59,567 bases of DNA from an uncultured Candidatus Saccharibacteria bacterium (lineage in GTDB: Bacteria; Patescibacteriota; Saccharimonadia; Saccharimonadales; Saccharimonadaceae), in NCBI GenBank assembly GCA_946527885.1, contig CAMMYO010000002.1, positions 1-59,567 on the forward strand, written 5' to 3'. A program made the translations under genes and the position numbers. The notes under the pieces are model-generated. The model ran no database searches, was not told where the DNA came from, and saw only the letters and a program-made list of their open reading frames with translations. Position 1 is the first letter of the stretch; each line of letters starts with the position of its first letter. Below, piece after piece: positions 10,208 to 51,452 of the stretch.

Positions 10208-10669
10208 CTACTCTGCCTTTTTGGCAATGTGGAGTCGGCGTTCGCGCCCTTCTCCAGTGCTAAAGGTTTCAATATCCGAGTAATCTTCGGCGAAGCGGTG
10301 AACGACGCGGCGATCAGCAGCATTCAGGTCGAGAACCTTCTCGTTGCCAGTGCGGCGAACCTCTTTAATCCAACGCTCGGCTTGATGCTCGATTTTATCT
10401 GCACGTTGGCGCTTGTAATCAGCAATATCAATATTCACACGAGTCGTTTCGGCGTTGCGAGCAACTAGAGTCATCATAACAATGTGCTGCAAAGCGCGAA
10501 GATTATTTGCATTCTTACCAATCAATAGTGAATTCATGCTGGTCGATGGAATTGAGAGTTGAATCACATCGTCTTCAATCGTCGAATATACCGCAACATT
10601 AATACCAAAGAACGACAACAAATCCTCCAAATACTTCGTAGCGAAGCGGATTGATTCATCTGTATTCAT
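10208..10669 (-). CDS. khpB: Jag/KhpB RNA-binding protein (KH + R3H)
   Basis: LLIGKNANNLRALQHIV (KH) and RRVVHRFAEDYSDIETFSTGEGRERRLHI (R3H); sits next to yidC. Confidence 0.88.
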   Translation of the reverse strand: MNTDESIRFATKYLEDLLSFFGINVAVYSTIEDDVIQLSIPSTSMNSLLIGKNANNLRALQHIVMMTLVARNAETTRVNIDIADYKRQRADKIEHQAERWIKEVRRTGNEKVLDLNAADRRVVHRFAEDYSDIETFSTGEGRERRLHIAKKAE

Positions 10670-49096: not shown

Positions 49097-49173
49097 GTGC
49101 CCGTAGCTCAGATGGATAGAGCGTCAGCTTGCGGAGCTGAAGGTCGTACGTTCGAATCGTATCGGGCATACCA
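49097..49173 (+). tRNA. tRNA-Arg(GCG), CCA encoded
   Basis: GTGCCCG...CGGGCAT acceptor, TCAGC-TTGCGGA-GCTGA anticodon arm, GTTCGAATC T-loop, ACCA. Confidence 0.93.
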
Positions 49174-49395
49174 TAATTTGAGTTAAAAATGCCTATTAGG
49201 GCATTTTTTGTTGCTTGCTCGTCCATTAGGCGCGCTTCACTCGGAGAAATTACCAACCTACGGCTTTTTGTTGACGAATTATTCTTTAGAAAAAACTGCT
49301 GATCTAGACTATTTTTTATTGCAATTACTCTGAGCCTAACACTAAATAGACTTTTCTAGGCTAGTCTGTTTTTGGTACACTGGCCGTGAAAAAAC

Positions 49396-49816
49396 ATGAA
49401 AAACCCCCGCATGTGCGGGGGTGTGTGCCCGAGTGATCGGGCGGGAAATGGCCCTGTCCAGGGCGGTGAAGTTATAAAAGACGCAAAACTTTTTTCAAGC
49501 CGCAGCTCTACATCTGTTCCTCAGAGTCTACTTGCCTCACTTAGGAGGCTTTGGAGTCGGAGGCTGTGCTAAATGGATAGCCATTTGTTTGGCTGGAACG
49601 CCTGGCTATTTGTGCCTTGTGGCACGAATTTAGTTTTGCACCGTCCGGTGCGGGGTTAATGAACTCGAATGGCTTTGGGCCAGTAGCCTTCGGGTTGCGG
49701 ACATCGCTATGGGTGGTGCATCGCTTGCCCATTAACGCGATGCGTGCGATATAATTAATTAAATCGCCGGCATAGAAAGGACCGTGAGCGGAGTTTGCTA
49801 CGCGGCCTCCGACGAT
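49396..49816 (-). ncRNA. Structured ncRNA candidate A (unidentified, ~420 nt)
   Basis: Promoter TTGACA(49846-49851)-17 bp-TATAAT(49823-49828) on minus; 9-bp helix GTCGGAGGC 49556-49564/49805-49813; terminator CCCCCGCATGTGCGGGGG at 49404-49421 with T-run. Confidence 0.7.
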
Positions 49817-49909
49817 TTATTTATTATATCACACTGACGTATAAATGTCAACAGTTTTTGTAATTTTAGTACAGAATCAAAAATCTCCCCTGTTGCGGGG
49901 AGATTTGTA

Positions 49910-50143
49910 CTAGTTATTGCAAGACATGATTTTGTCTTTATGAACGATGACCGTAGGGGCGTTCTCGTAGATGGTTGCAAGATTTGAGAGCATGCGATTA
50001 GCGTTTGCGACGAGTGTTTGACATGTTACGTTTTCGAGGACAATTAGCGTATCGTCTTCGTCGACGAGTGTGCCGAAATACTGCAATGGCGCTTCGATAT
50101 TGCAAGTAATAACTCTTACCGCCTGATTGGCGAACTTATTCAT
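49910..50143 (-). CDS. Small protein, possibly LSm/Hfq-like fold (tentative)
   Basis: MNKFANQAVRVITCNIEAPLQYFGTLVDEDDTLIVLENVTCQ...TVIVHKDKIMSCNN; two Sm-like segments by eye. Confidence 0.5.
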   Translation of the reverse strand: MNKFANQAVRVITCNIEAPLQYFGTLVDEDDTLIVLENVTCQTLVANANRMLSNLATIYENAPTVIVHKDKIMSCNN

Positions 50144-50204
50144 ATACATAATTTGATTGTAACACGAATGGAAATAGGTTGAATTTTATGATAAGATAAG
50201 AAAC

Positions 50205-50292
50205 GGAAGCGTGGCCGAGTGGTTGAAGGCGCACGACTCGAAATCGTGTGGGCAGAAATGTCTCGGAGGTTCGAATCCTCTCGCTTCCGCCA
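50205..50292 (+). tRNA. tRNA-Ser(CGA), CCA encoded
   Basis: GGAAGCG...CGCTTCC acceptor, ACGACTCGAAATCGT anticodon arm, long variable arm, GTTCGAATC. Confidence 0.95.
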
Positions 50293-50999: not shown

Positions 51000-51452
51000 A
51001 TGAGAATCGAGAGAACTTTTGGAGAGGGAGGTGCTTGCAAGGTAATTGATCTCTCTGCTATGACCAAGAAAATCGGAAAGGAAGATCTTGGTTCTGCCCT
51101 GATGTGGGCGCAGAAAGAAATCGATCGCCTTGGAGTCGTCCCGGAAATTACTCGTTTTTCAGAGTTCGGCAACGTTCCGGATGATCCGGATATCCATGTC
51201 TCTATGTTTATGATTGACGCAAATACGGCGCTTTGGCGCTGCTCTGCGACTTTCGAGAACAGAGAGAATGGATATTTGCAGCGGAGACCTGGTTCGCCGA
51301 TGCGGGTTGATCGCATTACATACAAGCGCGTGATTAACTTCGCAGAACTCTACGAAAAAAATGCTGCTCGTGTCGAGCAGCTACTCCGAAATGGAGCTTA
51401 CCTTGCTTTGCGCGATGTCAACCCTTTGAGGGCTAAAGCGCAGTTCCGCTAA
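51000..51452 (+). CDS. Hypothetical protein, possible paralogue of 51953..52393
   Basis: ORF with promoter upstream; ALMWAQKEI...DANTALWRCS...LRNGAYLALRDVNPLRAKAQF. Confidence 0.65.
   Translation: MRIERTFGEGGACKVIDLSAMTKKIGKEDLGSALMWAQKEIDRLGVVPEITRFSEFGNVPDDPDIHVSMFMIDANTALWRCSATFENRENGYLQRRPGSPMRVDRITYKRVINFAELYEKNAARVEQLLRNGAYLALRDVNPLRAKAQFR

Follow-up and report, generated by a model that had tools for sequence, protein, structure and literature searches.

The question raised by this locus was whether the minus strand between two tRNA genes, where an earlier note had placed an orphan structured RNA gene, specifies a noncoding RNA and, if so, of which kind. The stretch of DNA analyzed (referred to as the window) consists of 59,567 nucleotides and corresponds to contig C2 in a genome of 930 kb and 52 contigs; its genus is represented by 45 genomes including itself. 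The gene content and small genome are suggestive of a Saccharibacteria-type (CPR) organism. A promoter of the form TTGACA-N17-TATAAT was found on the minus strand at 49823-49851, and matched the consensus at 12 of 12 positions with an extended -10 element (TG before the -10 hexamer; TGA TATAAT); the sigma70 promoter previously called near-perfect was, in fact, perfect. Only ~0.03 such sites per window were expected by chance from base composition. Since the pattern occurred at 28 sites in the genome (2 for a reversed control) and was present in all 45 genomes, it is the normal strong promoter of the genus. From the -10 spacing, transcription should start near 49816-49818. The strong terminator claimed at the other end was also confirmed on the minus strand (49422-49403; CCCCCGCACATGCGGGGG and a T run, or ACCCCCGCACATGCGGGGGT + TTTT), the loop quoted earlier being its plus-strand reading. 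A second terminator (49906-49881) closes an upstream 79-codon gene and lies between this gene and the promoter, and, therefore, the unit is insulated from it. The GC content of the unit was 0.53, in contrast to 0.34-0.38 in the flanking intergenic DNA. The promoter and terminator delimit a proposed transcript of ~415 nt (49403-49818), and a transcription unit is evident from the sequence.

The only canonical ORF of the unit encodes 63 amino acids (49541-49732, minus strand) and, as the earlier note stated, lacks a ribosome-binding site; its length is unremarkable because an ORF of at least 63 amino acids was seen in 35% of shuffles. That account stood as far as this ORF was concerned, but overlooked that its frame stays free of stop codons over 91 codons, starting at the 5' end of the transcript (ATC... 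to TAA, 49541-49816), and carries an unusual codon signal. The codon-usage z of this frame (the first 273 nt) was 3.8, above all 400 of 400 shuffles and above the maximum of 2.3 among 13 structured-RNA controls (tmRNA and RNase P), although the score is somewhat inflated because, of several frames, the longest was chosen. Both components of this signal, synonymous and amino-acid, were about 2.9, and the 3-base periodicity had a p of 0.008. The unit may, accordingly, be read as a present or recent small protein gene, namely, an mRNA that encodes an orphan peptide (63-91 amino acids), with a start codon that was lost or is unusual and folding that is incidental; a GGAGG sequence just after the predicted transcription start fits this explanation. 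On the other hand, no ATG, GTG, or TTG was found in the first 28 codons of the frame or at the right distance after GGAGG, an open run of 91 codons occurred in 31% of shuffles, and the final ~140 nt of the unit remain non-coding. The GC content at codon position 2 (0.54) was near the top of the range of real genes (mean of 0.40, maximum of 0.57), and no relative was found in Pfam, NCBIfam, phages, plasmids, or IMG/VR. We regard a small protein gene as somewhat unlikely on balance; if the unit is one instead, it would be an ordinary orphan ORF.

The predicted fold of the unit had a z of -6.3, with none of 100 shuffles equally stable; the value was -5.5 for 49818-49400 and -4.2 once the terminator was removed. 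Among 186 other 390-nt segments of the window, the mean z was -0.66 (sd 1.54), and six segments (~3%) reached -4 or lower, so the fold of the candidate is good, but not exceptional. Both strands of 51041-51430, inside a 150-codon ORF (51000-51452), gave folds far more stable than those of shuffles (z of -8.2 and -5.6, with 16 shuffles only), and no long inverted repeat was found there. The perfect long-range pairing reported for the candidate was reproduced: the 5' arm GTCGGAGGC (49813-49805) and 3' arm GCCTCCGAC (49564-49556) are exact complements and form a 9-bp closing helix (referred to as P1), with a pairing probability near 1 in the predicted fold of the full transcript. P1 encloses a multi-hairpin domain of 258 nt with a fold z of -4.7; however, since a perfect 9-bp inverted pair arises in ~20% of dinucleotide shuffles, P1 by itself is not evidence of a structured RNA.

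Several further elements were predicted on the minus strand. In the nascent transcript, the 5' end may form an alternative hairpin (49761-49818) between AAATCGTCGG (49818-49809) and CCGGCGATTT (49770-49761), which is predicted to be displaced by P1 once the 3' arm has been made. A putative H-type pseudoknot was read from the sequence at 49709-49743, with a GCATCGC/GCGATGC stem and an ATGGG loop that can pair with CCCAT downstream. The 3' domain (49425-49555; fold z of -2.0) contains small hairpins (GCCTC/GAGGC, GCCCT/AGGGC, and GCCCG/CGGGC) and open linkers. The structure is moderately supported. The designation as a structured RNA gene stood with respect to a fold z beyond that of shuffles, but was weakened by z values that are not unique in the window, a coding-like signal in the first 91 codons, and the lack of homologues (see below).

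No Rfam family, including GOLLD, ROOL, 6S, and SRP, was matched at the gathering threshold, and only chance-level matches were obtained at E<=10. The best sub-threshold match, OmrA-B (E 0.12), was driven by the terminator. The Rfam comparison suggested in the earlier note was, therefore, negative and placed the candidate outside the known classes, and its failure to find tmRNA and RNase P signatures was also borne out. RNase P RNA of class A (RF00010) is of roughly similar size; however, no covariance-model match was detected at the candidate, and the genome's own copy is located elsewhere, on contig C24 (211.8 bits). There is good support for an independent transcription unit that belongs to no Rfam class.

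The assignment to tmRNA (RF00023) required a separate comparison because no tmRNA above the cut-off was found in this assembly. The candidate resembles a tmRNA in its length, in UCCA following P1, and in the codons GCA AAC TCC GCT (ANSA) in the open frame, as in the tag of one relative, but differs in its ends and in the tRNA-like domain. The tmRNAs of congeners were mostly recognized with scores of 70-90 bits and retain GGGGCTG / CAGCTCCACCA ends, whereas the candidate lacks a tRNA-like domain, the GGGGCTG/GCTCCACCA ends, a G3-U70 pair, and a T-arm, and was matched by neither Rfam nor ARAGORN. Furthermore, a comM-like gene adjoins the tmRNA gene in congeners, and comM was not found in this assembly either (a search without a positive control in this genome); since the tmRNA and its neighbor are both missing, the simplest, and probable, explanation is a gap in the assembly. 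One congener, the close relative G003, has a normal tmRNA plus an unrelated orphan RNA. After these comparisons, the tmRNA identity was rejected, and a very divergent tmRNA is hardly credible. As a separate observation, the tmRNAs of the genus (loci L009 and L011-L016) carry TTAGAC rather than TTCGAC, and their T-arm has GGAGGCAGTATCC where TTCGA is usual. ARAGORN missed all genus tmRNAs tested.

An array of guide RNAs, for example, a TIGR stem-loop array, was also considered: the spacers of such an array vary, which would account for the lack of homologues, and TIGR arrays are known from CPR bacteria (PMC12045711). Like them, the candidate has a strong promoter, a terminator, and hairpins in series joined by short linkers, and its sequence is not conserved. 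However, neither direct nor dual repeats were found within the candidate sequence, and no regular CCA/UG box pairs were seen on reading it; with this lack of box-motif periodicity and no Nop/Tas match (Pfam) among the eight neighboring proteins, an array is extremely improbable. GOLLD and ROOL are large structured noncoding RNAs encoded close to tRNA genes (PMC12286853). The candidate likewise lies close to tRNA genes, but matches neither family in Rfam; many GOLLD members exceed 800 nt, in contrast to its ~415 nt, and no phage genes were recognized among its tested neighbors.

The description of the candidate as an orphan held within the collections searched (393 genomes of the order, phages, plasmids, IMG/VR, and GTDB). 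BLAST gave nothing credible in 61 relatives or in the 393 genomes. A single-sequence covariance model of the P1 domain, run against 100 relatives and the genome itself, recovered only the candidate, together with one further match of 29 nt (E 0.04). Scans of phage, plasmid, IMG/VR, and GTDB sequences returned unrelated or chance-level matches only, and exact 18-24-mers of the candidate were not found in the scans of sequence collections. The exact gapped P1 pattern had six matches in IMG/VR, five of which came from a single viral group and were nearly identical to one another, but unlike the candidate, and one of which was unrelated, and 17 in GTDB, scattered over unrelated taxa (mostly Streptomyces), when a few were expected by chance. 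Since the candidate remains a single sequence, neither covariation nor any sign of purifying selection stands behind it.

The surroundings of the unit are themselves variable. It lies in the interval between tRNA-Arg(gcg) (49097-49173, plus strand) and tRNA-Ser(cga) (50205-50292, plus strand), which form the conserved left and right borders, respectively. An HIT gene, the gene for valyl-tRNA synthetase, and the tRNA-Arg side are kept in the two nearest relatives, and with these anchors conserved, the candidate RNA is absent from the corresponding interval of both. Among congeners, the interval ranges from 73 to 2556 bp and contains differing genes, and, therefore, the tRNA-Arg/tRNA-Ser interval (49097-50292) is a hotspot of gene turnover. 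The upstream 79-codon gene (49910-50149, minus strand), which lies outside the RNA unit and ends at its own terminator, has a homologue at the same place in G003 (34% identity, E 2e-5). Its product is weakly Sm/LSm-like: the SmD3 profile was matched at E 0.6, and in a Foldseek search with a model of pLDDT 72, 1ycy ranked first and entries for Edc3 and Lsm1-7 also appeared, all at E > 1. None of these matches was significant, and a role as an Sm/LSm RNA chaperone partner of the candidate is suggestive only. The gene is possibly leaderless, with TACAAT just before its ATG.

This variability, together with the absence of conservation anywhere searched, is what would be expected if the unit were a non-functional transcript, newly arisen or decaying, in which a strong promoter and a terminator were caught around turnover DNA in the hotspot. 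Nevertheless, a perfect promoter and terminator were kept together, the fold is stable, and the GC content is well above that of neutral intergenic DNA, making this explanation quite unlikely.

The regions downstream of perfect promoters were searched for units lacking a plausible ORF in this genome, G003, G024, and a sample of other congeners. In G003 (C4:3854-4287), an orphan unit of ~430 nt was found behind the same promoter type, with no family match and a fold z of -3.6. It sits at another genomic place and ends in a terminator stem near-identical to that of the candidate; no similarity beyond the terminator was observed when the two were aligned, and the G003 unit had no homologue in the genus. 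These two units may be members of a fast-changing class of ~415-435-nt structured RNAs carried by the genus, with a fixed design (a perfect extended promoter, a multi-hairpin body, and a CCCCCGCA/TGCGGGGG terminator) and no recognizable similarity between sister species, but we consider such a class very doubtful.

Two other types of element were noted in these genomes. A hairpin RNA of ~65 nt with a terminator (TATGGCTGGG-hairpin-CCTGGTCCCAAAGCGC) follows a near-identical perfect promoter in three species: L186 (G000:C27, just downstream of promoter 10386-10414), L171 (G003:C6, from 46462), and L224 (G024:C32, minus strand below 37470). Its inner hairpin shows compensatory changes (GGGCT/AGCCT and GGGTT/AACCT), and no Rfam match was obtained at E<=0.5. 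In two species, a shared motif that looks structured, TTCGCTGGGCGCGGCCC...GACTTGAAATATGCCTAGG, comes directly after short ORFs ending in PGGL-stop. The loci are L151 (two copies on the minus strand of G000:C8, below 476) and L174 (minus strand of G003:C7, below 64227). The motif has no Rfam match and looks like an RNA element at the stop codon.

Taken together, the candidate is most readily interpreted as a lineage-specific noncoding RNA of ~415 nt, present in a single copy and transcribed independently, in the tRNA-Arg/tRNA-Ser turnover hotspot, a reading to which we assign a probability of roughly 0.55. This reading is based on the 12/12 extended promoter, the terminators at its borders, the GC content of 0.53, the fold z, and the P1 probability of about 1; on a 63-amino acid ORF of chance length with neither a ribosome-binding site nor a family match, in a frame with a position 2 GC content of 0.54; and on the presence in G003 of a second orphan unit of ~430 nt, which has the same promoter type and a near-identical terminator stem, although the sequences are dissimilar outside the terminator. 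The absence of homologues, the codon signal in the first 273 nt, and the other segments of the window that fold as well were counted against it.

As a noncoding RNA, the candidate would be made constitutively and abundantly. Its 5' arm would first fold locally and then swap into the 9-bp P1, closing a multi-hairpin scaffold. It would then act in trans, either in regulation or by binding proteins, via predicted open segments such as 49684-49675, 49661-49652, and 49503-49491. Highly expressed, poorly conserved, lineage-specific transcripts, called "RNAs of unknown function", are common in bacteria (PMC4214555), and the candidate, therefore, fits a known kind, the lineage-specific orphan RNA. It is similar to these transcripts in its strong expression signals and in the absence of conservation outside the immediate lineage, but they were detected by RNA-seq, whereas its expression is deduced from sequence.

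No dedicated study on the regulatory RNAs of Saccharibacteria or other CPR bacteria was listed among 5.39 million open papers, and these RNAs appear to be barely described. A strongly promoted orphan RNA in a genome of less than 1 Mb is a simple target for Northern blotting or RNA-seq. If the parallel with G003 holds, it would point to RNAs that are constrained in position and structure, rather than in sequence.
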